From positions 1-33,725 of the forward strand of contig KV835886.1 of assembly GCA_001838165.1 (NCBI GenBank): a stretch of DNA of 33,725 nucleotides. The letters are read 5' to 3'. The stretch comes from Actinomyces sp. HMSC035G02 (GTDB lineage Bacteria > Actinomycetota > Actinomycetes > Actinomycetales > Actinomycetaceae). The translations under genes and the position numbers were made by a program. The notes beneath the pieces are model-generated. The model was not told where the DNA came from and ran no database searches. It was given only the letters and a program-made list of their open reading frames with translations. The number at the start of each line of letters is the position of its first letter. The stretch's first letter is position 1. Shown one piece after another: positions 9,977 to 31,301 of the stretch.

Positions 9977-10615
9977 TCAGTCGATGATTCCGTACAGGCG
10001 GTCGCCCGCGTCGCCTAGGCCGGGGACGATGTAGGACTTCTCGTTGAGGTGATCGTCGACGGCGGCGACAACGACGTTCACGTCGGCGCGGTCGCCGATC
10101 GCCTCCTCGAGGGTCTTGATGCCCTCGGGAGCGGCCAGGATGCACACGCAGGTGACGTCCTTAGCGCCGCGCTCGAAAAGGTAGTTGGTGGCGGCGACCA
10201 TGGTGTGGCCGGTGGCCAGCATCGGGTCCAGCACGAAGCACTGGCGGCCCGACAGGTCGTCCGGCAGGCGGTTCGCGTAGGTCTCGATCTCCAGGGTGTC
10301 CTCGTCGCGACGCATGCCCAGGAAGCCGACCTCGGCGGTGGGCAGCATGCGGGTCATGCCCTCGAGCATGCCCAGGCCTGCGCGCAGGACGGGGACCACG
10401 ATCGGGCGAGGCTCGGAGAGCTTCAGGCCGACGGTGGGGGCAACCGGGGTCTGGATGGGGGTCTCGGTGACGGCCACTTCGCGCGTCGCCTCGTAGGCGA
10501 GCAGGGTGACCAGTTCGTCCACGAGCTGGCGGAACGTCGCCGACGGCGTTTCGCGATCGCGCAGGACGGTGAGCTTGTGGGTGATCAGGGGGTGATGAGC
10601 AACGTGGAGGCGCAT
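9977..10615 (-). CDS. upp: Uracil phosphoribosyltransferase
   Basis: 212 aa, the standard length. It converts uracil and PRPP to UMP in pyrimidine salvage. The PRPP-binding loop is [11 protein letters not shown], the uracil-binding C-terminal motif is GDAGDRLYG, and the conserved [13 protein letters not shown] and RDEDTLE are present. The N-terminus [15 protein letters not shown] is typical of the family. The ATG at 10613-10615 is preceded by AAGG at a long distance and no strong Shine-Dalgarno. It is divergent from tadA and works with UraA, encoded at the left end of the window. Confidence 0.96.
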
Positions 10616-16406: not shown

Positions 16407-17471
16407 ATGTCTGTCGAGTTCGTTTCCGCCCCTCAGGCGGCAGATGCGGTGGCGTGTGACGCGCCGCTGCGGCTCGTCGACACCTTCGGGCGCGTGGCTC
16501 GCGACCTGCGCGTGTCGCTCACAGACCGCTGCAACCTGCGCTGTTCCTACTGCATGCCCCCCGAAGGCCTGGACTGGCTGCCCACCGAGGAAACCCTGAC
16601 CGATGACGAGGTCGTGCGCCTCGTGCGCGTCGGCGTCGAGCGGCTCGGGATCCGCCAGGTCCGCTTCACCGGCGGAGAACCCCTCCTGCGCCGAGGCCTC
16701 GAGGGGATCATCGAAGCGTGCTCCCACCTGCGCACCGACGAGGGGAAGCCCCTGGACCTGGCCCTCACGACGAACGCGCTCGGCCTGGCCAAACGCGCCC
16801 AGGGCCTGAAGGACGCGGGCCTGAACCGCGTCAACATTTCGCTTGATTCTCTGGACCCCGAGCACTTCGCGGCGATCACCCGCCGCGACCGCCTCGGTGA
16901 CGTCCTGGAGGGCATCGAGGCCGCCGCCCGCGCGGGCCTGAGCCCCATCAAGGTCAACGCCCTCGTCCTGCGCGGCATGAACGAGGCCGACCTGCCTGAC
17001 CTGGTCGACTACTGCCTGGACCGGGGCATCGAGCTGCGCGTCATCGAGCAGATGCCGATCGGCCCGCCAGACACGTGGGATCGTCAAAACATCATGACGG
17101 CCGACGAGATCCTGCACATCATGAGCACTCGCCACACACTGACCCCCGCGCCCCGCGAGGACCCGCATTCTCCGGCGGGACGCTGGATCGTCGACGGTGA
17201 CCCGACGAAGCGGCTCGGAGTCATCGCCTCCGTGTCCGACCCCTTCTGTGGCGCGTGCGACCGCACCCGCCTGACCTCGGACGGCATGGTGCGATCCTGC
17301 CTGTTTTCGACCGAAGAGACCTCGCTGCGCGACCTGCTGCGCGGCGGCGGTGACGATGCGCAGATCGCCGCCCGATGGACCGACGCGATGTGGGCGAAGC
17401 CGGCTGCACACGGGCTGAATATCGATACCTTTGCTCGCGCGTCGCGCACCATGAGCCGTATTGGTGGGTAA
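16407..17471 (+). CDS. moaA: GTP 3',8-cyclase MoaA (radical SAM)
   Basis: 354 aa. It performs the first step of molybdenum cofactor synthesis, converting GTP to 3',8-cyclo-7,8-dihydro-GTP. The radical SAM cluster CNLRCSYC has cysteines at 42, 46 and 49, followed by RFTGGEPLLR. The C-terminal second cluster is FCGACDRTRL plus a Cys 14 residues on (VRSC). The protein ends in Gly-Gly, as in functional MoaA where the tail reaches the active site. The ATG at 16407 is followed by a ~30-residue N-terminal arm typical of actinobacterial MoaA. It is divergent from the DUF559 gene and upstream of narK. Confidence 0.96.
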   Translation: MSVEFVSAPQAADAVACDAPLRLVDTFGRVARDLRVSLTDRCNLRCSYCMPPEGLDWLPTEETLTDDEVVRLVRVGVERLGIRQVRFTGGEPLLRRGLEGIIEACSHLRTDEGKPLDLALTTNALGLAKRAQGLKDAGLNRVNISLDSLDPEHFAAITRRDRLGDVLEGIEAAARAGLSPIKVNALVLRGMNEADLPDLVDYCLDRGIELRVIEQMPIGPPDTWDRQNIMTADEILHIMSTRHTLTPAPREDPHSPAGRWIVDGDPTKRLGVIASVSDPFCGACDRTRLTSDGMVRSCLFSTEETSLRDLLRGGGDDAQIAARWTDAMWAKPAAHGLNIDTFARASRTMSRIGG

Positions 17472-17508: not shown

Positions 17509-17695
17509 GCGGTCAATTGCTTGTTCGTCCTCAGGGGGAATGTCCCTGGCAGGCGCACTTTTCCCAGTGCTTACAAGGGTGATGCACGTCCCAATGAGTT
17601 CCTGTGGGTTATGTCATTTCCATTGGTAGCCTCCGTGTTAAAGAATGTCCGGCGCATGCCCGCGCCTGGGCGTCCCTTCCGACCCGAGGAGAGCC

Positions 17696-19039
17696 ATGAG
17701 CGCGACCGACCCCGCGGCCAAGAAGAGCCGCTACCTGCTCACTGACTGGAACCCCAACGACGAATCCAAGTGGGACTCGAAGCTCGCGTGGCGCACGCTG
17801 TGGATCACGACCTACTCGCTGATCCTGGCCTTCTGCGTGTGGTTCCTGCCCAGCGCGATCGAACCGAAGCTGACCGCCCTCGGATTCGATCTGAGTGAAT
17901 CGCAACGCTACTGGATTATTGCCCTCCCGGGCCTGGCAGCCGGCATCCTGCGCCTCATCTACATGTTCCTGCCCCCGCTCATCGGCACCCGCAAGCTCGT
18001 GGGCATCACCTCCCTGCTGTGCGTCATTCCGATGCTCGGCTGGTTCTTCGTGGTCCAGGACAACACGACTCCCTACTGGGTCCTGCTGTCCCTGGCCTTC
18101 ATGTGTGGCATCGGCGGCGGCGCGTTCTCCGGCTACATGCCCTCCACCGGCTACTTCTTCCCCAAGCGCCTGTCCGGCACGGCCCTCGGCCTGCAGGGTG
18201 GCATCGGTAATCTCGGCATGTCCGTCATTCTGCTCGTCGGTCCCGTTCTGATGGGCTTTGGTCTTTTTGGTCTGACCTGGTTGGCGCCCCAGCAGCAGGT
18301 GGCCGGCACCGCTGCCGGCCAGAACATCTGGGTCTACAACGCCGCGATCTTCTTCGTCCCGTGGTGCATCCTCGCGGCGATCCTCGCCTTCATCTGGCTG
18401 CGTGACGTGCCCGTCAAGGCCAACATCAAGCAGCAGCTGGACATCTTCTCCAACCCCAACACCTGGTACATGACCATCCTCTACGTCATGACCTTCGGCC
18501 TCTTCTCCGGCTTCTCCGCCGTCTTCGCAAAGTTGATCAATGGGCAGTTTGGTGCCCAGTCAGCACTTGCGCTTCCTGTGGCTGGCGCGACCTACGCGTT
18601 CCTCGGCCCCCTCATCGGCTCGCTCATCCGCATGTCCTGGGGCATCTTCTGCGACCGCATGGGCGGCGCCATCTGGACCTTCATCTCCGGCGTCGGCATG
18701 GCGATCACGATGGGTGGCATCGCCTGGGTCCTGACGAACCCCACCGGCATGACGGACTTCCACATCTTCCTGGGCCTCATGCTCGCCATGTTCCTATTCT
18801 CCGGCTTCGGCAACGCCGGTACCTTCAAGCAGATGCCGATGATCATGCCGGCCCGCCAGGCCGGCGGCGCCATCGGCTTCACCGCGGCGATCGCGTCCCT
18901 CGGCCCCTTCCTGGTCGGCGTCGCGCTCTCCGCTATCAGCGCCCCGGTCTTCTTCGCGGGCTGCGCCATCTTCTGCGCCCTGTGCTCGGTCCTGTGCTGG
19001 GTCATGTACGCGCGCAAGAACGCCCCGTTCCCCGGCTGA
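17696..19039 (+). CDS. narK: Nitrate/nitrite transporter NarK
   Basis: 447 aa major facilitator superfamily protein with about 12 predicted helices. Nitrate-porter signatures are present: GGAFSGYMPSTGYFFPKR, GGIGNLGMSV in the first half, and the second NS-like motif FGNAGTFKQMPMI. Members move nitrate in, by proton symport, and/or exchange it for nitrite. The ATG at 17696 has GAGGAG six bases upstream and replaces an in-frame upstream start with a poor context. It precedes narG by 69 bp, suggesting a narK-narGHJI operon. The 224-bp upstream gap holds the likely anaerobic/nitrate promoter, though no clear FNR-type site was seen. Confidence 0.95.
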   Translation: MSATDPAAKKSRYLLTDWNPNDESKWDSKLAWRTLWITTYSLILAFCVWFLPSAIEPKLTALGFDLSESQRYWIIALPGLAAGILRLIYMFLPPLIGTRKLVGITSLLCVIPMLGWFFVVQDNTTPYWVLLSLAFMCGIGGGAFSGYMPSTGYFFPKRLSGTALGLQGGIGNLGMSVILLVGPVLMGFGLFGLTWLAPQQQVAGTAAGQNIWVYNAAIFFVPWCILAAILAFIWLRDVPVKANIKQQLDIFSNPNTWYMTILYVMTFGLFSGFSAVFAKLINGQFGAQSALALPVAGATYAFLGPLIGSLIRMSWGIFCDRMGGAIWTFISGVGMAITMGGIAWVLTNPTGMTDFHIFLGLMLAMFLFSGFGNAGTFKQMPMIMPARQAGGAIGFTAAIASLGPFLVGVALSAISAPVFFAGCAIFCALCSVLCWVMYARKNAPFPG

Positions 19040-19108: not shown

Positions 19109-22100
19109 ATGACGAATCTCGAATCCGATATGACCTTCCCGACCTACGGCGGTGAGGTCAAGCCCGCGACCGGCGCGACCCTGTTCGCGCTCGGCTCGTG
19201 GCTGCGTCGCGGCAAGGCGTCCGCCGACGCGCGCCAGCTCTTCCTCGAGGGCGGCCGCGAAGGCGACTCCTTCTACCGCGACCGCTGGAGCTACGACAAG
19301 ATCGTGCGCTCCACCCACGGCGTGAACTGCACGGGCTCCTGCTCGTGGAAGATCTACGTCAAGGACGGCGTCATCACCTGGGAAACCCAGCAGACTGACT
19401 ACCCGTCGACCGGCGCGGACATGCCCGAGTACGAGCCCCGCGGCTGCCCGCGTGGCGCGGCGTTCTCGTGGTACGAGTACTCGCCGACCCGTATCAAGTA
19501 CCCCTACGTGCGCGGCGTCCTCCTCGACATGTTCCGCGAGGCCAAGAAGCGCCTCGGCGATCCGGTCGACGCGTGGGCCGCGGTCGTTGAGGACCCGGAG
19601 AAGGCGCGCGCCTACAAGTCGCAGCGTGGCCGCGGCGGCATGGTCCGCGTGTCCTGGGAAGAGGCGATGGAGATCGTCGCCTCCGCCTACGTGCACACGA
19701 TCAAGCAGTACGGCCCGGACCGCATCGCCGGCTTCTCGGTGATCCCCGCTATGTCGATGATCTCCTACGGTGCGGGCGCCCGCTTCCACGAGCTCATCGG
19801 CGCGACCATGCTGTCCTTCTACGACTGGTACGCGGACCTCCCGCCGGCCTCCCCGCAGGTCTTCGGCGACCAGACCGACGTGCCCGAGGCCGGCGACTGG
19901 TTCAACTCGCAGTACCTCATCATGTGGGGCACCAACCTACCGCTGACCCGTACCCCCGACGCCCACTTCATGGCCGAGGCCCGCTACCACGGCCAGAAGG
20001 TCGTCGTCGTGTCCCCGGACTTCGCGGACAACACGAAGTTCGCGGACGACTGGTTGCGCGTCCAGCCCGGCACGGACGGCGCCCTGGCGCAGGCCATGGG
20101 TCACGTCATCCTCAAGGAATTCCACGTCGGCAAGCGCGAGCCCATGTTCCTCGATTACATGAAGCGCTACACCGACTCCCCGTTCCTCGTGGAGATCGGC
20201 GAGGTCGGCGAAGGCGCCCACGAGGGCATCGATCCGGCGACGCTGGTTCCCGGCAAGTTCCTCACGGCCGCCAAGATGCCCGAGGGCACGACCGAGCGCA
20301 CCGAGAACAACGAGTTCCGTCCCCTCGTTATCGAGGCCGACGGCACGGTCAAGGACCCGGGTGGCACGCTCGCCGATCGCTTCGGCGAGGAGGGCGCTGG
20401 CCACTGGAACCTCAACCTCGATGGCGTCGAGCCGGTCCTGTCCATCATGGACACGGACGAGTGGGAAGCCGTTGAGATCGCCCTGCCGCGCTTCGACCTG
20501 CCCGCGGCCTCCGGCCAGGCTTCGGTCGGCGGCGGCTACGTCAAGCGTGGCGTGCCCGTGCGCCGCGTCAACGGCCGCCTCGTGACGACCGTGTACGACA
20601 TCATGCTGGCCCACTACGCGGTTGAGCGCGAGGGTCTGCCGGGCCAGTGGCCCACCGACTACATGGACGCCTCCACGCCGGGCACCCCCGCGTGGCAGGA
20701 GGAGTTCACCTCGGTTCCCGCCGGAGCCGCCATCAAGATCGGTCGCGAGTTCGCGCAGAACGCGGTCGAGACCGAGGGTCGTTCCATGATCCTCATGGGC
20801 GCTGGCACGAACCACTACTACCACTCCGACCAGATGTACCGGACGTTCCTGGCGCTCACGGAAATGTGTGGCACCCAGGGCCGCAACGGTGGCGGCTGGG
20901 CCCACTACGTGGGTCAGGAGAAGGTCCGCCCGATCATGGGCTGGGGCTCCTTCACCTTCGCCCTGGACTGGGCGCGCCCGCCGCGCCAGATGATCTCCAC
21001 CGGCTGGTACTACATGACCACCGACCAGTGGCGCTACGACGGGGCCCCGGCCTCGGCGATGGCGAACCCGATCAAGTCCTCGCACCTGGACGGCAAGCAG
21101 CTGGTCGACACCCTCGTCGAGTCGGTTCAGCGCGGCTGGATGCCCTGCTACCCGACGTTCTCCAAGGGTTCGACCCAGCTGGGTCGCGAGGCCGCCGAGG
21201 CCGGCATGGCCCCCGCGGAATACGTGTCCCAGGAGCTGCGCGAGGGTCGCCTGCAGTTCGCGATCGAGGACCCGGACGCCCACCACAACGTTCCGAAGAT
21301 CCTCGCGAACTGGCGTACGAACCTGCTCGGCTCGTCCGCGAAGGGCACCGAGTTCTTCCTGCGTCACATGCTGGGCACCGGCAACGAGGTCAACGCCGAG
21401 GAGCTGGAAGAGGGCAACCGCCCCGCGTCCGTCAACTGGCGTGAGGCTCACCCCGGCAAGCTCGACCTCATGTGGGTCGCGGACTTCCGCAACACCTCGA
21501 CGACGCTGCACTCCGACGTCGTGCTGCCCGCCGCCACGTGGTACGAGAAGCACGACCTGTCCTCCACGGACATGCACCCCTTCATGCACTGCTTCGACGA
21601 GGCCGTGAACCCGCCGTGGGAGGCCCGCACCGACTTCGAGGTGTTCCAGACCCTGGCTCGCCTCGTCGGCCGCATGGCCCCCGGCCACCTGGACACCCAG
21701 ACGGACGTCGTCGCGGTCCCGCTGGGGCACGACTCCCCGGACGCCATGACCATGGCGGACGGCGTCGTTCCCGAGCAGACGTGGACGCCCGGCAAGACCA
21801 TGCCGAAGCTGGTCCCGATCGAGCGCGACTACACGCAGGTCGGCTACAAGTTCGACCGCATGGGTCCGCTCCTGCCCAAGGCCGGCCTGGCCTCGAAGGG
21901 CGTTGCGTACAACGTGCAGGAGGCGTACGAGCAGCTCGGCGACCTCAACGGCCGCGCCCCCATGGACGGCAACGCCGGCGAGGGCATGCCGCTGTGCGAC
22001 ACCGCCATCAAGGCGGCGAACATGGCGCTGCGCTTCTCGGGCACCACGAACGGTTCGCTGGCCGTTCAGGGCTTCCGCACGCTGGAGAAGCGCGTCGGCA

Positions 22101-22879
22101 ACGAGATGGCGTTCCTGGCCGAAGGTGACGAAGAAAAGAAGATCACCTACCAGGACACCGTCCTGCAGCCGCGCAGCGTCATCACCAGCCCCGAGTGGTC
22201 GGGTTCCGAGCACGGCGGTCGCCGCTACAGCGCCTTCGTGCAGAACGTCGAGTGCCGCAAGCCGTGGCACACGCTCACGGGCCGCCCGCAGTTCTACGTC
22301 GACCACGACTGGATGATGGACATGGGCGAGTCCCTGCCGATCTTCCGTCCGCCGCTCGACCTGGCGCACATCTACGGTGAGCGCCCCGTCGGCGACCACC
22401 GTCCCGGTCAGCCGGGTCAGGCCGAGGTCGCGGTGCGCTACCTGACGATCCACAACAAGTGGGCCATCCACTCCCAGTACTACGACAACCCGTACATGCT
22501 GACGCTGGGTCGTGGTGGCCAGACGGTGTGGATGAGCCCGCAGGACGCCGAGAAGATCGGCGTGCGCGACAACGAGTGGATCGAGGCGAAGAACCGTAAC
22601 GGCACCGTGTCGGCTCGCGCTGTTGTCTCCCACCGCATCCCGGAGGGCACGGTGTTCATGCACCACGCCCAGGATCGCCAGATCAACACCCCGCTGAACG
22701 AGGGGTCCGGCAAGCGCGGCGGCACGCACAACTCGCTGACCCGAATCTTTATTAAGCCGACCCACCTGGCCGGCGGATACGCGCAGTTCGCCTACGCGTT
22801 CAACTACTACGGTCCCACCGGCAATAACCGTGACGAGGTCACGGTTATCCGCCGCCGCTCCCAGGAGGTGCAGTTCTGA
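19109..22879 (+). CDS. narG: Respiratory nitrate reductase alpha subunit
   Basis: 1256 aa, normal for NarG. It is the molybdenum bis-MGD catalytic subunit that reduces nitrate to nitrite on the cytoplasmic side. The FS0 [4Fe-4S] ligands appear as H70-x3-C74-x3-C78 and C113 (RGCPRG). His as first ligand is typical of NarG. The molybdenum-ligating Asp is D243 within SFYDWYADLPPASPQ. The ATG at 19109 is preceded by AGGAG. The stop overlaps narH by 1 nt. No Tat signal is seen; the N-terminus is short, consistent with a cytoplasm-facing enzyme. It depends on the Moco genes on both sides of the nar operon. Confidence 0.98.
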   Translation: MTNLESDMTFPTYGGEVKPATGATLFALGSWLRRGKASADARQLFLEGGREGDSFYRDRWSYDKIVRSTHGVNCTGSCSWKIYVKDGVITWETQQTDYPSTGADMPEYEPRGCPRGAAFSWYEYSPTRIKYPYVRGVLLDMFREAKKRLGDPVDAWAAVVEDPEKARAYKSQRGRGGMVRVSWEEAMEIVASAYVHTIKQYGPDRIAGFSVIPAMSMISYGAGARFHELIGATMLSFYDWYADLPPASPQVFGDQTDVPEAGDWFNSQYLIMWGTNLPLTRTPDAHFMAEARYHGQKVVVVSPDFADNTKFADDWLRVQPGTDGALAQAMGHVILKEFHVGKREPMFLDYMKRYTDSPFLVEIGEVGEGAHEGIDPATLVPGKFLTAAKMPEGTTERTENNEFRPLVIEADGTVKDPGGTLADRFGEEGAGHWNLNLDGVEPVLSIMDTDEWEAVEIALPRFDLPAASGQASVGGGYVKRGVPVRRVNGRLVTTVYDIMLAHYAVEREGLPGQWPTDYMDASTPGTPAWQEEFTSVPAGAAIKIGREFAQNAVETEGRSMILMGAGTNHYYHSDQMYRTFLALTEMCGTQGRNGGGWAHYVGQEKVRPIMGWGSFTFALDWARPPRQMISTGWYYMTTDQWRYDGAPASAMANPIKSSHLDGKQLVDTLVESVQRGWMPCYPTFSKGSTQLGREAAEAGMAPAEYVSQELREGRLQFAIEDPDAHHNVPKILANWRTNLLGSSAKGTEFFLRHMLGTGNEVNAEELEEGNRPASVNWREAHPGKLDLMWVADFRNTSTTLHSDVVLPAATWYEKHDLSSTDMHPFMHCFDEAVNPPWEARTDFEVFQTLARLVGRMAPGHLDTQTDVVAVPLGHDSPDAMTMADGVVPEQTWTPGKTMPKLVPIERDYTQVGYKFDRMGPLLPKAGLASKGVAYNVQEAYEQLGDLNGRAPMDGNAGEGMPLCDTAIKAANMALRFSGTTNGSLAVQGFRTLEKRVGNEMAFLAEGDEEKKITYQDTVLQPRSVITSPEWSGSEHGGRRYSAFVQNVECRKPWHTLTGRPQFYVDHDWMMDMGESLPIFRPPLDLAHIYGERPVGDHRPGQPGQAEVAVRYLTIHNKWAIHSQYYDNPYMLTLGRGGQTVWMSPQDAEKIGVRDNEWIEAKNRNGTVSARAVVSHRIPEGTVFMHHAQDRQINTPLNEGSGKRGGTHNSLTRIFIKPTHLAGGYAQFAYAFNYYGPTGNNRDEVTVIRRRSQEVQF

Positions 22880-24429
22880 TGAAGGTCATGGCTCAGATCG
22901 CGATGGTGATGAACCTCGACAAGTGCATCGGCTGCCACACCTGTTCGGTCACCTGCAAGCAGGTGTGGACGAACCGCGAAGGTACCGAGTACATCTGGTT
23001 CAACAACGTCGAAACCCGTCCCGGCGTGGGCTACCCCCGCGGCTGGGAGGACCAGAAGAAGTGGAAGGGTGGCTGGAAACGCACCGCCACGGGCCGCCTC
23101 GTTCCCCGTCAGGGCGGACGCGTCGCCTCGCTCGCGAAGATCTTCGCGAACCCGACGCAGCCGACCATGAAGGACTACTACGAGCCGTGGACGTACGAGT
23201 ACGACAAGCTGCTCCAGGCGCCCGCGAACTCCCGCGCGATCCCGACGGCCCGCGCGAAGTCCAAGATCACGGGCGAGCACATCGACAAGCCCGAGTGGGG
23301 CCCGAACTGGGACGATGACCTTGGTGGCTCCATGGAGACCCTGGATCAGGACCCCGTCCTGCACCAGATGAACCTCCAGGTTGCTAAGACCATCGAGGAC
23401 GCGTACATGTTCTACCTGCCTCGCATCTGCGAGCACTGCCTGAACCCGACCTGTGTGTCGGCGTGCCCCTCGGGCGCGATGTACAAGCGCTCCGAGGACG
23501 GCATCGTCCTCGTCGACCAGGATCAGTGCCGCGGCTGGCGCATGTGCGTCTCCGCCTGCCCTTACAAGAAGGTCTACTTCAACCACAACACGGGCAAGGC
23601 CGAGAAGTGCACGCTGTGCTACCCGCGCCTCGAGGTTGGCCAGCCGACCATCTGCTCGGAGACCTGCGTGGGCCGCCTGCGCTACATGGGCGTGCTGCTC
23701 TACGACGCGGACCGCGTCACCTGGGCCGCGTCCCAGGAGGACGAGCGCGATCTGTACCGCGCCCAGCGCGAGATCCTGCTCGACCCGAACGACCCGCAGG
23801 TGGTCGCCCAGGCTCAGGCCAACGGCGTTCCGCACTCGTGGATCACGGCCGCCCAGCAGTCCCCGATCTGGAAGCTCATCACCGAGTACGAGGTCGCCCT
23901 GCCGCTGCACCCCGAGTTCCGCACCCTGCCGATGGTCTGGTACGTGCCGCCGCTGTCCCCGGTCGTCGATCAGGTGACCGCGTCCGGCAGTGACGGCGAG
24001 GACCACAAGGTTCTGCTGTCCGCCATCTCGCAGATGCGTATCCCGCTGGAGTACCTGGCCGGCCTGTTCACGGCCGGAGACACGGCTCCCGTGGAGTTGG
24101 CGCTGCGTCGCCTCGCCGCGATGCGCTCCTACATGCGCGACGTCTTCGTCGACAACCCGACGAACGAGGAGATCCCGGCCTCCGTGGGAATGACCCCGGA
24201 GAAGGTCAAGGAGATGTACCGACTGCTGTCGATCGCCAAGTACGACGACCGCTTCGTCATTCCGACCGCCCACCCCGAGATGCCGCGCGGCATCAAGGAG
24301 CTCGAGGGCTGCCCGGTGTCCTACGATGTCGAGGCCTTCCACGGTCTGGCCCCCGCCACGTCGAACCGCCCGATGGGTGGCTCGTCGCCGGAGGGACGCC
24401 AGATGCTCCCCCTTGAGGTCGTTCGATGA
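22879..24429 (+). CDS. narH: Respiratory nitrate reductase beta subunit
   Basis: 516 aa iron-sulfur subunit passing electrons from NarI to NarG. Four Cys groups are visible: CIGCHTCSVTC near 16-26, CEHCLNPTCVSACP, CRGWRMCVSACP, and CTLCYPRL with a later CSETC. The Trp in CRGWRMC in place of a cluster cysteine is the hallmark of the NarH [3Fe-4S] centre. The ATG at 22879 lies in a TGATG overlap with the narG stop, and AGGAGG is about 10 bases upstream. The stop overlaps narJ by 4 nt. Confidence 0.98.
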   Translation: MKVMAQIAMVMNLDKCIGCHTCSVTCKQVWTNREGTEYIWFNNVETRPGVGYPRGWEDQKKWKGGWKRTATGRLVPRQGGRVASLAKIFANPTQPTMKDYYEPWTYEYDKLLQAPANSRAIPTARAKSKITGEHIDKPEWGPNWDDDLGGSMETLDQDPVLHQMNLQVAKTIEDAYMFYLPRICEHCLNPTCVSACPSGAMYKRSEDGIVLVDQDQCRGWRMCVSACPYKKVYFNHNTGKAEKCTLCYPRLEVGQPTICSETCVGRLRYMGVLLYDADRVTWAASQEDERDLYRAQREILLDPNDPQVVAQAQANGVPHSWITAAQQSPIWKLITEYEVALPLHPEFRTLPMVWYVPPLSPVVDQVTASGSDGEDHKVLLSAISQMRIPLEYLAGLFTAGDTAPVELALRRLAAMRSYMRDVFVDNPTNEEIPASVGMTPEKVKEMYRLLSIAKYDDRFVIPTAHPEMPRGIKELEGCPVSYDVEAFHGLAPATSNRPMGGSSPEGRQMLPLEVVR

Positions 24430-25115
24430 GTACTTTCGTCGGCATTCCGCGTATTCCTACGGCCGCTCCGGAAACGGAGATGGATCCGCAGGACGCGCGC
24501 GGTGTGCGCATGGCGGTCTCGGTCCTCCTGGACTATCCGGGGGATGACTTCGAGACCAAGCTGAACGCCGTCGAGGAGGCTCTGGCTGACCTGCCGGAGC
24601 CGGCCTCGTCGGCCCTGGCCTCGTTCGTGAGCTACGCTCGCGCCGCGGGCCTGCGCGCCATGCAGACCACCTACGTGGAGACGTTCGACCAGCGCCGCCG
24701 CTGCGCGCTCGGCCTGACGTACTACACGCACGGCGACACCCGTGGACGCGGCCAGGCAATCCTGGCGTTCAAGGAGGTGCTGCGCCGCGCCGGCTTCGAG
24801 ATGGACCGCGAGGAGCTGCCCGATCACCTGCCGGTGGTCCTGGAGTTTGCGGCCTTCGACGAGACGGGCACGGCCGAGGGCCTGCTGCGCTCGAACCGCG
24901 AGGGCATCGAGGTGATCCGCACGGCGCTGCGCGCCGCGGACTCCCCGTACGCGCCGCTGCTGGATGCGCTGGTCGCGACGCTGCCTGAGCCGGACGAAAA
25001 GACCATTGAGGGCTTCCGTAAGCTCATTAGCCAGGGGCCGCCCACCGAGCTGGTGGGCGTGGGCGATCTGTCTGCCACGCCCTCCCCGACTTCCGAAACA
25101 ACGATGGGACGGTAA
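24426..25115 (+). CDS. narJ: Nitrate reductase molybdenum cofactor assembly chaperone
   Basis: 229 aa all-helical TorD/NarJ-family chaperone that holds apo-NarGH for cofactor insertion and membrane attachment. Family segments are the LLDYPGDDF start, YVETFDQRRRCALGLTYYTHGDTRGRG, and DHLPVVLEFAA. The ATG overlaps the narH stop (ATGA), indicating translational coupling. narI follows after 5 bp. Confidence 0.95.
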   Translation: MSTFVGIPRIPTAAPETEMDPQDARGVRMAVSVLLDYPGDDFETKLNAVEEALADLPEPASSALASFVSYARAAGLRAMQTTYVETFDQRRRCALGLTYYTHGDTRGRGQAILAFKEVLRRAGFEMDREELPDHLPVVLEFAAFDETGTAEGLLRSNREGIEVIRTALRAADSPYAPLLDALVATLPEPDEKTIEGFRKLISQGPPTELVGVGDLSATPSPTSETTMGR

Positions 25116-25120
25116 CGTTC

Positions 25121-25897
25121 ATGGAATCCGCACTTTTGCATGCCGCGTCTGCAGCCGAGACGCAGTCGCTGTCCTTCCTGGACATTGCCCTGTGGGTGGT
25201 CCTGCCCTACGTGTCCTTCGCGATCCTCATCGTGGGCCTCGCGTGGCGCTACAAGACGGACCAGTACGGCTGGACGTCTCGTTCCTCGCAGTGGAATGAG
25301 CCGACCATCCTGCGCTGGGCGTCGCCGCTGTTCCACTTCGGTGTTCTCTTCGTGTTCATGGGCCACATCCTCGGCCTCGTGATCCCGAAGACGTGGACCG
25401 AGGCGGCCGGCGTGCCCCAGCACGTGTACCACCTGATGGCGACGATCCCCGGTACGATCGCCGGAATCATGACGATCGTCGGCCTCGCGATGCTGATCTA
25501 CCGCCGTCTGGTGTACAAGTCGGTACGCGTGGCGACGACCCGCATGGATATCGTCACCTACGTCATGCTGACCATCCCGGTGCTCCTGGGTGGCGCGGCG
25601 ACGCTGCTGAACCAGGTGCTCGGTGGGCACGAGGGCTACGACTACCGCGAGACGATCTCCGTCTGGTTCCGGTCGATCTTCTACCTGCACCCGCAGGCGC
25701 ACCTGATGGTCGATGTGCCCCTCAGCTTCAAGCTGCACATCGTCGCTGGCCTGCTGCTCTTCTGCGTGTGGCCGTTCACCCGCCTCGTGCATGCGGTGAG
25801 CGCACCGGTCGGCTACGTGGCGCGTCCCCCGGTGGTCTACCGTGCGCGCGACGAGCGCCGCGAGCACCAGCTGACGCGTGGCGGCATGTCGGACTGA
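25121..25897 (+). CDS. narI: Respiratory nitrate reductase gamma subunit (cytochrome b)
   Basis: 258 aa membrane subunit with five predicted helices that oxidises menaquinol and ligates two b hemes. Histidines suited to heme ligation are in FHFGVLFVFMGHILG (helix 2) and, near the C-terminus, in FKLHIVAG and TRLVHAV. The conserved RWASPLFHFG and WFRSIFYLHP are present. It completes narGHJI. A GC hairpin follows at 25964-25989. Confidence 0.96.
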   Translation: MESALLHAASAAETQSLSFLDIALWVVLPYVSFAILIVGLAWRYKTDQYGWTSRSSQWNEPTILRWASPLFHFGVLFVFMGHILGLVIPKTWTEAAGVPQHVYHLMATIPGTIAGIMTIVGLAMLIYRRLVYKSVRVATTRMDIVTYVMLTIPVLLGGAATLLNQVLGGHEGYDYRETISVWFRSIFYLHPQAHLMVDVPLSFKLHIVAGLLLFCVWPFTRLVHAVSAPVGYVARPPVVYRARDERREHQLTRGGMSD

Positions 25898-25963
25898 TCG
25901 ATGGCCGTGCCCGCCGCGGTCCCTCGCTCCTCGGCGAGGCTGTGGCGTGGTGATCGGCAGGGG

Positions 25964-25989
25964 CGGGGGCGAGCGCAGGCTCGCCCCCG
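25964..25989 (+). terminator. Terminator of the nar operon
   Basis: Perfect 10-bp stem CGGGGGCGAG (25964-25973) / CTCGCCCCCG (25980-25989), six-base loop, followed by CGTCTTTAT. It lies 66 bp after the narI stop. Confidence 0.82.
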
Positions 25990-26104
25990 CGTCTTTATCG
26001 GGGGTCCCCGCGTTCTCACCTGTATGAATAGAGCGATAGACCCCGCGTAATGCGACCGACTGCTGGTATTGGCCGTGCGAGTGGCTGTCTGTGATGGGTA
26101 GAAT

Positions 26105-26131
26105 AAAGCGCGCTTTGTTAGTAACGTAACA
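26105..26131. promoter_or_regulatory. Paired dyads, candidate operator of the HTH-MoaD gene
   Basis: A perfect 12-bp palindrome AAAGCGCGCTTT (26105-26116) abuts a second dyad TGTTA-N6-TAACA (26116-26131). Both are about 70-95 bp upstream of the ATG of the winged-helix protein. Autoregulation or control by a redox/nitrate regulator is inferred. Confidence 0.45.
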
Positions 26132-26199
26132 GCTTTAATGCCGTATGGAGATGCCTATGAAGGGCATTTCCGCTGATTATGAGGGAGAGAGGATACGTC

Positions 26200-27195
26200 A
26201 TGAGTGATACCTCCCGTGCTCGGCCTCTGGCTGAAACGCTCGCCGCAATGGCGGCGTTGACCCCTGCACAGCACGCGCTCTTGGAGCGCATCTCGCACCA
26301 TGCGACACCCGTGACCGTGGCGGAGCTGGCTCAGGAAGCCGGCTTGCACGTCTCGAGTGTGCGCGAGACCCTCGAGGGTCTGTTCGCCCTCGGCCTCGTG
26401 GAAAAGCAGCAGCTTCCCTCATCAGGCCGTGGCCGACCCGCGCTGGGCTATTCGACGATGACCCCGGCGGATCCCTCGTTTGCGGCGCAGATGCTGCACC
26501 AGCTCACCTCGTCGCTGCTGGCGTGGCTGCGCGTTGACGCGGCCGACCCGGCCGCCTCGGTGCGTGAGATCGGCTCGCGCTGGGCGGACGCCGCCCTCGA
26601 GACGATGGCGGTGCCTGATCACAGCCACAATTCGAATCGTCGTCCCGTGCGCGACACCTTCAGCATCGCCTCGCACCTGGGCAAGGTGCGCCTGTTCATG
26701 AACGCGATGGGCTTTGCCTCGGTTCCGCACGAGACCGACCCGATGGCCGTCGTGCTGACGGCCTGCCCGTTCACTGAGCCGGGCGCCCCCGACGACCTGG
26801 CCCTCGAGCTGCGCCGCGGCATCGTCGAGCGCGTGTTCGAGCGGACGGCGACCGGCTTTGCCACCTGGTCACTGGAGAGCGATCCCGAGGATCCTCTGCG
26901 CCTGACTGTCTATATTCGACGGCTTGATGAGGCGAATCCGAAGCCGCTGTCGACGACCCTTCACTTCTTTGGTGGCGCGGCCGAGGCCGCCGGTGGGTAC
27001 ATGCGCGAACTGCCCTCCGCTGAGACTCCCGCGACTCTGGGCGAACTCATCGATCAGCTCAGCTCAGAGGGCCCTGAGCTGGCGCGAATCCTCGCTGTGT
27101 CGAGCTATCTGGTCAACGAGCGCTCCGCTCGTCTGGACGCCGAGCTCGCGCCCGGCGCGCGTGTCGACGTCCTGCCTCCCTTCGCTGGCGGGTGA
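26200..27195 (+). CDS. Winged-helix regulator fused to a C-terminal MoaD sulfur-carrier domain
   Basis: 331 aa with three parts. Residues ~17-85 form a winged helix (LTPAQHALLERI, VTVAELAQEAGLHVSSVRETLEGLFALGLVEK, then a GRGRPALGY wing) like ArsR/COG2345 regulators. Residues ~90-240 resemble the COG2345/SufR-type sensor region, but only one cysteine (C189, in LTACPF) remains, so an Fe-S cluster held by this domain alone is unlikely. Residues ~250-331 match MoaD: TLHFFGGAAEAAG, ATLGELIDQLS, LVNERSA, and the terminal VDVLPPFAGG. The protein ends exactly in Gly-Gly, the residues thiocarboxylated in MoaD. moaE, a MoeB-like gene and mobA follow, and no free moaD is seen. The ATG at 26200 was preferred over 26179 because AGAGAGGA lies correctly spaced before it. 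It would supply sulfur to MoaE and may couple carrier state to nar/Moco transcription. Confidence 0.9.
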   Translation: MSDTSRARPLAETLAAMAALTPAQHALLERISHHATPVTVAELAQEAGLHVSSVRETLEGLFALGLVEKQQLPSSGRGRPALGYSTMTPADPSFAAQMLHQLTSSLLAWLRVDAADPAASVREIGSRWADAALETMAVPDHSHNSNRRPVRDTFSIASHLGKVRLFMNAMGFASVPHETDPMAVVLTACPFTEPGAPDDLALELRRGIVERVFERTATGFATWSLESDPEDPLRLTVYIRRLDEANPKPLSTTLHFFGGAAEAAGGYMRELPSAETPATLGELIDQLSSEGPELARILAVSSYLVNERSARLDAELAPGARVDVLPPFAGG

Positions 27196-27215: not shown

Positions 27216-27252
27216 GGGGCGGTCAGGGTTGTAAAATAATCCTGACCGCCCC
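27216..27252 (+). promoter_or_regulatory. Hairpin between the HTH-MoaD gene and moaE
   Basis: Perfect 12-bp stem GGGGCGGTCAGG (27216-27227) / CCTGACCGCCCC (27241-27252) with an A/T-rich 13-base loop and no U-run after. It may be a partial terminator, attenuator or RNA-stability element lowering moaE expression relative to the fusion gene. Confidence 0.5.
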
Positions 27253-27296: not shown

Positions 27297-27716
27297 ATGT
27301 CAGCTGAGATTGCAACCGGCATCACCGATGAACCGCTGGATACCGGCGCGCTGATTAATAGCGCACGTCGGGATACGTGTGGTGCTGTGGCGTCCTTTGT
27401 TGGGGTGGTGCGTAACCATGACGGCGGAGAGAGCGTGGATGCGATCGAGTATTCTTCGCACCCGTCGTCGCAGCAGATTCTGCGGGATATCGTCATGGAA
27501 TTTAAGGATCGTCCGGGCGTGCATTGCATCGTCGCGTGGCACCGCGTGGGGCATCTGGAGATCGGTGAGGATGCGATGGTTGTCGCCGTCGCCGCAGAGC
27601 ATCGTGCGCAGGCATTCCGCGCGGTCGAGGCCATTGTCGAGGACGTGAAGGCGAAGCTCCCGATCTGGAAGAAGCAGGAATTGACTGACGGTTCTCACAA
27701 CTGGTCGGGTCTGTGA
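27297..27716 (+). CDS. moaE: Molybdopterin synthase catalytic subunit MoaE
   Basis: 139 aa. It forms the dithiolene of molybdopterin with sulfur from MoaD. Motifs are GAVASFVGVVRNHDGG at the N-terminus, IVAWHRVGHLEIGEDAMVVAV, EHRAQAF, and the C-terminal VKAKLPIWKKQE with the catalytic lysines. The ATG at 27297 has GGAGG about five bases upstream; an earlier in-frame ATG (27261) has no such site. The MoeB-like gene begins 1 nt after its stop. Its natural partner here is the MoaD domain of the preceding fusion. Confidence 0.95.
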   Translation: MSAEIATGITDEPLDTGALINSARRDTCGAVASFVGVVRNHDGGESVDAIEYSSHPSSQQILRDIVMEFKDRPGVHCIVAWHRVGHLEIGEDAMVVAVAAEHRAQAFRAVEAIVEDVKAKLPIWKKQELTDGSHNWSGL

Positions 27717-27717
27717 G

Positions 27718-28542
27718 ATGACGATCGGCGATCCTTTCTCCCGCGATGCGGCCGTTTCGGGGCGCGCCGTCGCGCTTCCGCTGATCAATCAGCCCGTCCC
27801 GTACGAGGCCGGGGATCCCGCGCTGGAGCGTTTCCGTCGCAATTGGCTAGTCTCCGGCATTGGCGAGGCCGGCCAGGCGCGCCTGGCTGCCGCGCGCGTG
27901 CTCGTGGTGGGCGCGGGCGGCCTTGGCTCCCCCGTCCTCCTGTACCTGACGGCGGCGGGCATCGGCACGATCGGCATCTGTGATTCTGACGTGGTCGAGG
28001 TGTCGAACCTTCAGCGTCAGCTCCTGCATGGCGAGGGCGACGTGGGGGATCCGAAGCCGGACTCCGCGGTGCGTCACCTGAGCGGGCTGAACTCATCGGT
28101 GCATTTTGAGCGCTACGGGCACGTGACCCGCGAGTGGTTGGACGAGCATGGTCGCGAGTGGGACCTGATCGTCGAGTGCACGGATAACTTCGATGCGAAG
28201 TACCTGGTCGCGGACTACTGCGCGGATTCTGGCGTTCCGCTGGTGTGGGGCACGGTCGTGTCGATGGCTTTCCAGGTGAGCGTGTTCTGGTCCCAGGCGC
28301 CGGCCCCGGTGCCCTCGTTGACGCTGCGGAGCCTGCACCCGGTCAAGCCTGCCCCCGGAACGACGCCGGCCTCGCCGAAGGTTGGCGTGCTCGGCCCCGT
28401 GGTTGGCCAGGCGGGCACCGCGATGGCGACGGAGGCTATCAAGCTGCTGGTGGGCTTCGGCGAGCCGCTGATCGGGCGTGTCCTCATGATGGATGCGGCG
28501 ACGCAGCGCGCCGACGTGCTGACCTTCGCGCCGTGGGACTGA
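27718..28542 (+). CDS. moeB: MoeB/ThiF family adenylyltransferase lacking zinc cysteines
   Basis: 274 aa E1-like enzyme expected to adenylate the C-terminal glycine of a MoaD-type carrier. Adenylation features are GAGGLGSP (65-72), D89/D91 after GIC, NLQRQ (97-101), K113 in DPKPD, and ECTDNFDAKY with D156. VGVLGPVVGQAG and ATEAIKLL are also typical. The two CxxC zinc pairs of MoeB/ThiF are absent: the expected CxxC after SLT reads LRSLHP, and the second site reads ASPKVGVLG. No rhodanese domain is fused, unlike mycobacterial MoeZ, so the sulfur donor is elsewhere. It starts 1 nt after the moaE stop and overlaps mobA. The symbol reflects context; specificity is inferred. Confidence 0.88.
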   Translation: MTIGDPFSRDAAVSGRAVALPLINQPVPYEAGDPALERFRRNWLVSGIGEAGQARLAAARVLVVGAGGLGSPVLLYLTAAGIGTIGICDSDVVEVSNLQRQLLHGEGDVGDPKPDSAVRHLSGLNSSVHFERYGHVTREWLDEHGREWDLIVECTDNFDAKYLVADYCADSGVPLVWGTVVSMAFQVSVFWSQAPAPVPSLTLRSLHPVKPAPGTTPASPKVGVLGPVVGQAGTAMATEAIKLLVGFGEPLIGRVLMMDAATQRADVLTFAPWD

Positions 28543-29159
28543 GTCCCGTCGCCCGCGCTGACGTCGCTGCGATCGTCGTCGGCGGCGGTGGGGGAGAGCG
28601 CCTGGGTGGCGTCTCCAAGCCTGACCTGACGCTCGGTGGCGTGCGCTTGATCGACCGTGTGTGCGGAGCTCTTCTGGAGGTGTGCGGCGCGGGTTGCGTG
28701 GCCGTCGTGCCGCCGATCGTACGCGTTCCGGATGGTGTCCGGCGCACCCTTGAGGATCCGCCGAACGGTGGTCCGCTGGCTGGTATTGACGCGGGCCTGC
28801 GCGCGCTGAGCGTCGGCGACGACGTCCTCGTCGTTGTTGTGTCTGTCGACGCTCCCGGTGTGGGTGCTTTTCTGCCCGTCCTCCTCGAACCCGCGTTGGG
28901 CGAGGGGGTCGAGGGGCGCATCGTGCGCGGCGGGGATCCGGAGCGTTTCGATCAGTACCTCATGGGCATCTATCGTGCGGGTGCGCTGCGCCGCGTCCTC
29001 GACGAGGCCGAGGCTTCCCTCGGGTCGGTCCGTGGAGTGGGGGTGCGCCGGGTGCTGCGCGCGCTGGCGCTCGAGCGAGTGGGCGTGAGCGCCGACGTTT
29101 GCCGGGACATCGATACCCCTGCGGATGTGGCCTGGTGGGAGGCTTTCCTGGGTCAGTAA
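28533..29159 (+). CDS. mobA: Molybdenum cofactor guanylyltransferase (MobA-like)
   Basis: 208 aa nucleotidyltransferase with a Rossmann-like NTP fold. It is expected to attach GMP to Mo-molybdopterin to form the MGD used by NarG. The N-terminal loop is AAIVVGGGGGERLGG with SKPDL, a variant of the usual LAGGxSxRMGxDK. PPNGGPLAGIDAGL matches the PxxGPLAGI motif, and the metal-binding DxP segment reads SVDAPGV. The start is uncertain: GTG at 28533 overlaps moeB by 10 nt and gives MGLSPVARADVAAIVV; no good Shine-Dalgarno is seen. It is the last gene of the HTH-MoaD/moaE/moeB/mobA unit. Confidence 0.85.
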   Translation: MGLSPVARADVAAIVVGGGGGERLGGVSKPDLTLGGVRLIDRVCGALLEVCGAGCVAVVPPIVRVPDGVRRTLEDPPNGGPLAGIDAGLRALSVGDDVLVVVVSVDAPGVGAFLPVLLEPALGEGVEGRIVRGGDPERFDQYLMGIYRAGALRRVLDEAEASLGSVRGVGVRRVLRALALERVGVSADVCRDIDTPADVAWWEAFLGQ

Positions 29160-29160
29160 T

Positions 29161-29190
29161 TTGTGATCGATACCCCCGAGGGTGTAGATT
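29161..29190 (+). promoter_or_regulatory. Possible promoter of the Pce-like gene
   Basis: TTGTGA (29161-29166) and TAGATT (29185-29190) are separated by 18 bp. Each matches 4/6 of the sigma-70 type consensus. The inferred start is about 38 bp upstream of the ATG. Confidence 0.35.
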
Positions 29191-29234
29191 TAGCTAGTAA
29201 GTGTCCTACGCCCTATCCCACTCAAGGTGCACTC

Positions 29235-31301
29235 ATGAATCTTCGTCACGGACAACTGTGGCAGCGACTCGGACTGACCGTATTGTCAGGAATTCTCGTC
29301 GCATCCCTCGCTCCCGCTACTGCGGCCGCCCCTGCAGGCGGTCAGGATACGCATGGTGACATGGAGTCTGCCGACCTCTCCCAGTCAAGTACCGACTCCG
29401 GCGTCGCTGCCCCGGTCGCTTCCCAGGATCGTGCAGCCTCGGATGGCGCCGATGCGTCCGATGCCTCCGACTCCGCCGAATCCGCGGATTCAGCCGACGA
29501 GGCCACGGCCTCGTCCGAGGAAGAAAGCGCGGACGGCGTCGACGCGCAGGTCTACACCTTCCCCGGCACGGACGGTCCCACCCGCATTCATGTTCTCTCG
29601 ACGTCGGGTTCTGCGGACGCCATCCTGCTCGAGTCTCGAGGCGTCTTCGCTATGATCGACGGCTCGGAGGGCGTGGGTGCGCCCGACGGCAAGGATCCGC
29701 GCTACCCGCTGCGCGACGGCGTGGTCCCTGGTTGGGCGGGGGATACCGACCGGGTTCTCGGTTACATGTCCAACCACGGCGTCACCTCCTCGAACCTCGC
29801 GTTCTACCTGGGCACGCACGCCCATTCCGATCATATCGACAACGCGGACGATATCATCAGGAAGTTCCGCCCGAAGGTCATCTTCAGCCCCGAATACTCC
29901 GACAAGTGGATCACGGATAAGTCACGCCTGTGGGACAACCAGTGGGTCTACGACAACATGATGGCGGCCGCGCGATGGGCTCAGAGCACGTACGGCGCGT
30001 CGATCGTGCAGAATGTCAAGGACTACAACACTCACATCACGCTGGGTGATATGGATGTCCAGATTATCCCCACGGATCCGGCTGAAAACTACAAGAAGAC
30101 CGGTGTTCGCGATGCAAACCTCATTGCATATACAGCGAAGGTGAGTGCATTCGGGCATTCCGCCTACCTGGCCGCCGACCTTGAGGCCGGTGGTGGCTAC
30201 GAGGACCGCATCGCGCCGATCGTTGGGCATGTCGACATGCTCAAGGCTGGTCACCACGGCCTGCCGACCTCAAACTCTCCGGCCTTCATGAAGGCATTGA
30301 GCCCCTCCATGATCGCCCAGACAGGGCCGGAATGGTACACCCCCGACAATCTGACCCAGAGCGTTATTCATGGGGAATCGTCGTGGGTGCCGCTGGTGGA
30401 TCTGTGGCCCAGTGCGCACATTCCCTCGCTCATCGCTACTTTCGGGTCCGCTGGCATTACATACAACGATCTGTCCGCCGCTTCCTGGGGGCATGAGTAC
30501 GGCCTAGAGAGGCCGCGCGCCTGGTGGTTCAAGGGCGGCCGACCCGCAGCCACGACCGGCTGGTGGAAGGGATCGAGTGGGTCCTGGTACTACTTCGCGG
30601 GCAAGCCCTCCGCCGAGGCCAGCACCTGGGTGTATGACGGCGGGCAGTGGTACTGGATGGACGCCACCGGCGCGATGGCGACCGGTTGGATTCATGACGG
30701 AAAAGCGTGGTACTACCTGGATTCCGCAGGTCATCCCGCAGGTAACGGGTGGAGCCTCATCGATGGCTCGTGGTACTACCTGAGCGGCGGGCGCGCTGCC
30801 ACCGGTTGGCTCTACGAAGGTGGTGCCTGGTACTACCTGAACGGCGCGACCGGCGCGATGGTCACCGGATGGAAGCAGATCGACGGTCAGTGGTACTTCC
30901 TGAACTCCTCGGGCGCGATGGTCACCGGCTGGATGAATGGTGGCGGTCCTTGGTACTACCTGACCGGCAGTGGCGCCATGGCCACCGGGTGGCTCTACGA
31001 CAACGGCTCCTGGTACTACCTGGATGCAGTGACCGGCGCGATGGCCACCGGATGGTTCCAGGACGGGACCACCTGGTACTACAGCAGTTCCTCCGGCGCC
31101 ATGATGACCGGCTGGCTGAACGGTGGGACCGCGTGGTACTACCTGAGTGACAGCGGCGCTATGGCCACGGGCTGGATCCTGGATCATGGGGCTTGGTACT
31201 ACATGAACGGCACAGGTGTCATGGTCACTGGCACGCAGGAGATCGACGGTCGCTCCTCGATCTTCTCCCCCTCGGGACGCTGGGTCGGCTACGCCTCCTG
31301 A
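29235..31301 (+). CDS. Secreted Pce/CbpE-like phosphorylcholine esterase with choline-binding-type repeats
   Basis: 688 aa. Signal peptide 1 to ~32 ends at ATAAAPA, followed by an acidic Ser/Asp/Ala-rich linker to ~105. Residues ~108-400 form a metallo-beta-lactamase fold with THAHSDH (His195, His197, Asp199, His200) and later AADLEA and AGHHGLP. Several stretches closely follow pneumococcal Pce/CbpE as recalled: SADAILLESRGVFAMID, PDGKDPRYPLRDG, EYSDKWITDKSRLWDN and ALSPSMIAQTG. From residue 442, about 12 repeats of the type GW-x7-WYYL-x5-GAMAT run to the end. In Pce the same architecture removes phosphorylcholine from teichoic acids while bound to choline on the cell surface. The ATG at 29235 has AAGGTG upstream and gives the signal peptide. 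The repeats could instead bind another wall glycopolymer. It ends at the start of a 93-bp repeat. Confidence 0.87.
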   Translation: MNLRHGQLWQRLGLTVLSGILVASLAPATAAAPAGGQDTHGDMESADLSQSSTDSGVAAPVASQDRAASDGADASDASDSAESADSADEATASSEEESADGVDAQVYTFPGTDGPTRIHVLSTSGSADAILLESRGVFAMIDGSEGVGAPDGKDPRYPLRDGVVPGWAGDTDRVLGYMSNHGVTSSNLAFYLGTHAHSDHIDNADDIIRKFRPKVIFSPEYSDKWITDKSRLWDNQWVYDNMMAAARWAQSTYGASIVQNVKDYNTHITLGDMDVQIIPTDPAENYKKTGVRDANLIAYTAKVSAFGHSAYLAADLEAGGGYEDRIAPIVGHVDMLKAGHHGLPTSNSPAFMKALSPSMIAQTGPEWYTPDNLTQSVIHGESSWVPLVDLWPSAHIPSLIATFGSAGITYNDLSAASWGHEYGLERPRAWWFKGGRPAATTGWWKGSSGSWYYFAGKPSAEASTWVYDGGQWYWMDATGAMATGWIHDGKAWYYLDSAGHPAGNGWSLIDGSWYYLSGGRAATGWLYEGGAWYYLNGATGAMVTGWKQIDGQWYFLNSSGAMVTGWMNGGGPWYYLTGSGAMATGWLYDNGSWYYLDAVTGAMATGWFQDGTTWYYSSSSGAMMTGWLNGGTAWYYLSDSGAMATGWILDHGAWYYMNGTGVMVTGTQEIDGRSSIFSPSGRWVGYAS
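30558..31298 (+). repeat. Tandem cell-wall/choline-binding repeats (coding, ~12 units of ~20 codons)
   Basis: Degenerate tandem units of about 60 bp within the Pce-like gene. Each encodes GW, a short polar loop, WYYL or WYFL, and GAMAT/GAMVT. Units 5-11 are the most regular. The last unit has lost the aromatic pair (reads RSSIFSPSGRWVG). Similar DNA units such as TGGTACTACCTG recur and could recombine. Confidence 0.85.

Follow-up and report, generated by a model that had tools for sequence, protein, structure and literature searches.

The DNA analysed here (the window) is a stretch of 33,725 nucleotides from Actinomyces sp. HMSC035G02. Between its nar genes and its moaE gene lies a single open reading frame joining a transcription regulator to a MoaD-like domain. 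The genes and features of this locus are as follows.

16407-17471, before narGHJI: moaA (Pfam)
17645-19039, before narGHJI: narK (MFS family)
19109-25897, forward strand: narGHJI (narJ and narI by Pfam; narG and narH presumably, named by gene place and recall)
25963-25990, forward strand: terminator-like hairpin between narI and the fusion gene (scan)
26099-26104, forward strand: TAGAAT, candidate -10 element for the fusion gene (recognised by eye in near relatives)
26116-26131, forward strand: operator-like palindrome TGTTAGTAACGTAACA (core pattern, with variants in near relatives)
26200-27195, forward strand: regulator-MoaD fusion gene, 331 aa plus stop (open frame, Pfam MarR_2 and ThiS, 20 further loci)
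26227-26454, forward strand: winged helix, residues 10-85, with LHVSSVRE helix and GRGRP wing (Pfam, AlphaFold2 model, invariant motifs)
26479-26922, forward strand: long helix 94-113 and sensor domain 117-241, probably TRAPP-subunit-like (AlphaFold2 model, Foldseek)
26764-26766, forward strand: Cys189, sole cysteine, aligned to the first of three in unfused relatives (alignment)
26923-26949, forward strand: linker, residues 242-250, of low confidence and variable (pLDDT 58 for block 241-250; alignment gaps)
26950-27192, forward strand: MoaD domain, residues 251-331, with Gly-Gly at 27187-27192 (PF02597, Foldseek)
27216-27252, forward strand: 17-bp hairpin between the fusion gene and moaE, with no clear T-run
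27297-27716, forward strand: moaE, start probably 27297 (PF02391, E 1.2e-32; solved MoaE chains matched over nearly the whole length)
27718-28542, forward strand: MoeB/ThiF-like activating enzyme (PF00899, E 1.2e-57; MoeB 1jw9, E 2e-35)
28548-29159, forward strand: mobA-like gene, start uncertain (PF12804)

The frame starts at the ATG at 26200 (or at 26179) and stops at 27193-27195, giving 331 amino acids counted from 26200, and runs without a break through a winged helix, a sensor domain and a short linker into a MoaD domain whose Gly-Gly end is free. The original prediction of a regulator and a MoaD-like domain in one frame is thereby confirmed, together with the protein's C terminus VDVLPPFAGG with its intact Gly-Gly and the succession of moaE, MoeB-like and mobA genes behind it, each of which has the Pfam match given above. 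Pfam returned MarR_2 over residues 20-77 (E 1e-8) and ThiS (PF02597) over residues 255-331 (45.2 bits against a cut-off of 22.5, E 1.4e-11), the latter match bearing out the predicted MoaD domain; the piece 26941-27192 by itself reached 46.9 bits. The NCBI moaD equivalog TIGR01682, tried here on the fusion and its MoaD piece, gave 26.4 bits for the fusion and 30.5 bits for the piece alone, below its cut-off of 66.15. NCBIfam matches to the regulator part all lay below their cut-offs, the best being to an Lrs14-like HTH family, and neither TOBE nor Mop (molybdate-binding) was among the Pfam families listed for the fusion protein up to E 1.

An AlphaFold2 model built from 34 sequences (mean pLDDT 87.2, pTM 0.62) predicts a MoaD fold over residues 251-325 followed by a loose tail, with a poorly ordered linker around 242-250. 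MoaD chains head the Foldseek matches of this model (6jc0_A, E 5.4e-7; 6jbz_B; 1fm0_D, E 1.4e-4); 1jwb_D, the MoaD of a MoeB complex, stands lower in the list (E 1.2e-3), and winged-helix regulators are also returned. Weak matches to TRAPP subunits (3cue_B, E 9.2e-4; 7b6d_A, E 4.1e-3; TM 0.30 by query length) are ascribed to the sensor part by their length, the matched stretch itself not being printed. Since dN/dS ranged from 0.01 to 0.37 across 12 pairs in each of the winged helix, the sensor and MoaD, all three parts are under purifying selection. Judging from its motifs, H-x-SSVRE and the GRGRP wing, which are invariant in 18 aligned fusions (among the translated loci, L068 reads RRGRP), the N-terminal part very probably binds DNA. 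Taken together, 26200-27195 encodes a conserved and probably two-function protein.

Distribution and gene neighbourhood of the fusion

The conserved fusion looked for by the original prediction was found in related genomes: among the matches listed, it is present at full length in at least 21 of the 200 genomes sampled from the family, 17 belonging to the nearest genus, three to genus g5 and one to genus g10. A class-wide sample yielded it in one of 394 genomes (G001). A search of 5.8 billion proteins, with 7998 candidates scored, found 76, of which 53 carry a winged helix and ThiS according to a hand count from a table of precomputed domains. Named carriers are Schaalia, Actinomyces, Buchananella, an Actinomycetaceae MAG and Propionibacterium cyclohexanicum; the carriers are related to Schaalia odontolytica, an oral bacterium that reduces nitrate. 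A profile search listed 95 sequences and added one further fusion (P0077), with no new fusion lineage among the rows examined. Nocardia-type regulators of 320-329 aa lacked a MoaD end in the eight examined (P0080, P0083, P0084, P0087-P0089, P0091 and P0093).

The fusion proteins of L107 (Xylanimonas cellulosilytica 352_XCEL) and L108 (Sanguibacter keddieii 250_SKED) are 97% and 96% identical, and these records probably represent mislabelled Schaalia assemblies. P0051, named Propionibacterium cyclohexanicum, falls inside the clade of Actinomycetaceae fusions, perhaps through horizontal transfer.

Loci were fetched as 20 regions from the 21 fusion genomes, G086 excepted. As in the window, the fusion gene comes straight after narKGHJI, with narI as its direct 5' neighbour, and moaE lies 3' of it in all 20; moaE adjoins the fusion gene in 18 and is 1.8 or 7.4 kb off in L075 and L074. 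A MoeB-like gene follows moaE in 17 regions, but not in the three g5 genomes. The frame was unbroken in each of the 20 fusion loci translated, which rules out a sequencing frameshift joining two genes; the frameshift or stop between the two parts that the original prediction had considered is likewise absent from the window. Two-piece matches, apparently in different frames, were seen in the narG of L084 and L095 and the narH of L076, and may reflect a frameshift, a sequencing error or divergence.

The MoaD half and Moco synthesis

The original prediction took the fusion to be the cell's MoaD. Among relatives this largely holds: in 18 of the 21 fusion genomes, two of them incomplete (G197, 84%; G199, 70%), the fusion is the only ThiS (PF02597) match over the cut-off, although G005, G040 and G064 possess a second, free MoaD. 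Sub-threshold PF02597 matches in G068, G183 and G197 stop short of the profile end. Because PF02597 missed the free MoaD of G126, a sharper profile was built from 10 MoaD sequences and run on 30 genomes; it recovered the divergent free MoaDs of G126 and G147, both overlooked by PF02597, and the fusion remained the sole match in the same 18 genomes, with two MoaDs each in G005, G040 and G064. The free MoaD of G126 (L103, 15996-16310) and its G147 counterpart carry an insertion before the last strand. A short ThiS match within a 151-aa frame (G156:C1:145478-145666), in a genome with no MoaE or regulator match, is perhaps a remnant.

MoaE, the MoeB-like protein and NarI were each matched in all 21 fusion genomes, and the Gly-Gly is kept in the window and in the 20 translated loci. 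Three genomes, G166, G168 and G170, retain the regulator half without MoaD; they gave no NarI, MoaE, MoeB-like or MoaD match at the thresholds used, nor any match to the sharper MoaD profile. The MoaD part therefore goes with the Moco pathway, both being missing from these three genomes. Such comparisons point to a role of the MoaD half in Moco synthesis, and to a regulator able to function, or at any rate to survive, in its absence. Like MoaD (6jc0, 1fm0), the fusion has a beta-grasp domain with a free C-terminal Gly-Gly, and in the window moaE and a MoeB-like gene are adjacent; unlike MoaD, it is extended at the N terminus by 250 residues that include a DNA-binding domain. Judged from near relatives, we are highly confident that these bacteria use the C-terminal domain as their working MoaD.

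Alternatively, the fusion could act purely as a regulator, reporting through its binding of MoaE or MoeB, with another, undetected MoaD making Moco. The second MoaD of G005, G040 and G064 would fit this, as would the fact that the MoaD counts come from relatives' genomes and not from the window's own. Yet neither profile, one of which detects divergent MoaDs, found another MoaD in 18 of 21 genomes, and the MoaD part and the Moco genes are absent together from the three genomes that keep the regulator, so we regard a mere reporter as very improbable.

The MoaD fusions found in the literature covered are MoaD-MoaE chains that undergo cleavage. In the available portion of PMC4326299, MoaX of M. 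tuberculosis is, like the fusion, a natural MoaD fusion in Actinobacteria, but it has MoaD ahead of MoaE, is cut after the Gly-Gly and contains no regulator (PMC4326299). Such a layout, MoaD then MoaE in one chain, was not seen in the window, where moaE is a separate gene. The MoaD part of the fusion might similarly be released, by a protease or from an internal translation start, so that the halves act apart, and MoaX, which is cut in the cell and needs this cutting, would provide a precedent (PMC4326299, same portion). However, the Gly-Gly of MoaX is blocked until cut because MoaD stands in front, whereas that of the fusion is already free. The 29-codon junction has no ATG, GTG or TTG in five of 21 sequences (the window and four near relatives), which makes free MoaD by internal initiation unlikely in the window strain. 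A Shine-Dalgarno-like stretch at a junction start codon occurs in only one of the 21, and no start that could release free MoaD is conserved among them. We therefore consider separately acting halves unlikely.

Ancestry of the regulator half

ArnR of C. glutamicum, as described in the part of PMC12343034 available, is encoded immediately downstream of narKGHJI and binds a [4Fe-4S] cluster, with the conserved Cys179, Cys193 and Cys223 as likely ligands. It represses nar and hmp, its binding is abolished by NO, and its sensor domain has a TRAPPC3-like likeness (PMC12343034). The fusion shares with this account of ArnR a winged helix, a dimer helix, a TRAPPC3-like sensor, a gene place behind narKGHJI and an actinobacterial host, but has only one of the three ligand cysteines left and has an added MoaD domain. 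Gene place, predicted fold and cysteine spacing suggest that the regulator half is kin to ArnR, the ArnR sequence itself lying outside the alignment, and ArnR is a better comparison for it than COG2345 in general. In G006, G121 and G092 an unfused relative immediately follows narI; in G126 the two are separated by about 1 kb.

In a tree built from 53 regulator parts, 32 fused and four unfused rows grouped in one clade (support 100/99), next to which stand four unfused rows carrying the full set of three cysteines. All three presumed ligand cysteines occur in 14 of the 17 unfused rows outside the clade and in none of the 36 rows inside. Outside, the second cysteine is absent from L090, L099 and L105. 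Of the 14 complete unfused rows, 12 show the ArnR spacing of 14 residues between the first two cysteines; the third follows 32-44 residues further on (30 in ArnR). Inside, the second is missing from all 36 rows and the first from four (L083, L087, L088 and P0071), while the third column holds a cysteine in three (P0051, P0056 and P0067). From these counts and the tree, the loss of the cysteines and the gain of MoaD fall on the same long branch. Based on the spacing in ArnR, the lost cysteines would be ligands of a [4Fe-4S] cluster. The single cysteine noted in the original prediction is indeed the only one of the window protein, Cys189, and the others have been lost relative to unfused relatives; that MoaD replaced the cysteines as sensor is plausible but unproven. 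Ligand loss is also possible without fusion, since L090, L099 and L105 are unfused.

For a second tree, 10 of the 53 rows were dropped beforehand: L103, L105 and L099, which have long branches, L100, and six with close kin. With the long branches removed, clade support was 100/100 and the fused label needed three changes within the clade. Starred branches nest L086, L087 and L088 in this tree, and the neighbours of L087/L088 differ between the two trees. A clade comprising the fused rows by themselves was mildly rejected (p-AU 0.030), but excluding only L086 (p-AU 0.278) or only L087/L088 (p-AU 0.295) was not. Given these exclusions and the shift of L087/L088, secondary loss of MoaD is favoured but not proven, and one fusion followed by several losses of MoaD is likely but not certain.

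The orphan regulators without MoaD lie at 8938-9690 in L086, at 9666-10406 in L087 and around 9972-10631 in L088, in genomes without NarI or Moco-gene matches. Those of L086 and L087 are near upp- and tadA-like genes, upp being at 9977-10615 in the window, and may mark where a nar-moa island stood before it was lost.

Candidate regulatory sites and possible coupling of the halves

We propose that the N-terminal part would be an ArnR-like DNA-binding regulator whose presumed [4Fe-4S] ligands were lost on the branch that gained MoaD. By the chemistry of known MoaD, the MoeB-like enzyme would adenylate the MoaD domain, the free Gly-Gly would become thiocarboxylated, and the domain would dock into MoaE. 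Its state, free or held by MoeB or MoaE, would alter DNA binding, and for this reason the fusion would be kept. That one protein is jointly a working MoaD and an ArnR-like DNA-binding regulator is probable; that the free, MoeB-held or MoaE-held state of MoaD changes DNA binding is a tentative proposal made by analogy. ModE and BirA each join, in one protein as in the fusion, a winged helix to a domain of the pathway controlled. Their domains differ from those of the fusion, ModE binding molybdate through Mop domains and BirA being a biotin ligase. BirA, a bifunctional repressor-enzyme, would be the model for a MoaD state that sets DNA binding.

The core of the palindrome TGTTAGTAACGTAACA is expected 0.03 times by chance per window. 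Inspection by eye showed variants upstream of the gene in nine near relatives, the weakest in L073, and none in more distant fusions. A search of three genomes allowing two mismatches gave a single palindrome per genome, each time 5' of the fusion gene; the reversed pattern, run as a control, gave one hit as well, in G043. In the Schaalia odontolytica group the fusion thus probably controls its own transcript through 26116-26131, a putative operator. Signalling to the nar and moa genes, as originally predicted, was not borne out by these scans. A 10-site matrix gave no convincing site ahead of narK, and a shared operator at narK was not supported, the only window score being 0.0, at the end of moaA, against 29-38 for true sites. 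Control of nar by the fusion is assumed from descent.

The matrix scan also returned partial sites behind mobA in four relatives. These copies (TTTGTMAGTAAYG; L066 7107, L067 7822, L068 12591 and L069 13139) precede a choline-binding-type surface protein gene 3' of mobA. In the window, a large protein with choline-binding repeats is encoded at 29163-31301, immediately behind mobA.

A consensus promoter scan found no promoter for the fusion gene. Three terminator-like sites were observed in the scanned region for 0.8 expected, and in L076-L084, the nine regions furthest removed from the window, about 70-230 bases separate the narI match from the start of the regulator match. The hairpin at 27216-27252 is kept in nine near relatives, with 93.5% of cells paired across 10 sequences and weak covariation, and was not seen in distant fusions; it might be an attenuator or an RNA-stability element. 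No Moco riboswitch (RF01055) was detected in the window, and none of the 21 fusion genomes had one over the cut-off (G068 gave a weak match of 15.5 bits). Flavohaemoglobin (hmp) is the second target of ArnR; the 21 fusion genomes had no hmp family match over the cut-off. The same was true of all 28 genomes searched, with a strict cut-off passed by only two of 14 controls and with weak matches in G174 and G183, and hmp was set aside as a second target.

The missing targets and the MoaD-less survivors speak against coupling of the halves; in its favour are the long retention of the fusion and the replacement of sensor cysteines by MoaD along one branch. A passive fusion is rated slightly more likely than coupling: MoaD would have been captured by read-through from a neighbouring regulator gene and would do its normal job while carrying a harmless N-terminal cargo, with no signal between the halves and a regulator that answers to something else or to nothing. 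The short, variable and poorly ordered linker is consistent with such a capture, as are the regulator kept without MoaD in G166, G168 and G170 and the lack of a regulatory target among the nar sites scanned (narK). A mere cargo is, however, harder to reconcile with a conserved HTH and with retention in at least 21 sampled genomes of three genera, among the matches listed. The second presumed Fe-S ligand is moreover gone from every row of the clade, a point countered by the unfused L090, L099 and L105, which also lack that cysteine. The coupled reading, in which an iron-sulfur sensor was swapped for a sulfur carrier whose thiocarboxylation or partner state, and hence Moco demand, directly sets DNA binding, is thus advanced as a possibility only.

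If true, this coupling would provide a transcription factor with a working ubiquitin-like sulfur carrier as its signal domain. A regulator that is the pathway's own sulfur carrier would directly link cofactor synthesis to nitrate respiration, and one protein may both build Moco and control genes needing Moco in nitrate-respiring actinobacteria. Even without coupling, the fusion is a well-marked case in which presumed Fe-S ligands disappeared along the very branch that gained a fused domain.

A molybdopterin-synthase subunit is also tied to transcription in Drosophila, where MoaE is a subunit of the ATAC histone acetyltransferase (PMC9228816, in part). This case differs in concerning the other subunit, an animal and a chromatin complex, and the part of the source available mentions no DNA-binding domain of its own (PMC9228816). 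No description of a MoaD-regulator fusion was found in the literature searched, most subscription journals being outside its reach. The available part of the MoaE/MOCS2 review PMC9228816 contains none, nor does that of the beta-grasp review PMC1949818, whose main text has MoaD 17 times and HTH 0 times. In databases, the architecture is visible in some protein names ('ArsR family transcriptional regulator/m...').
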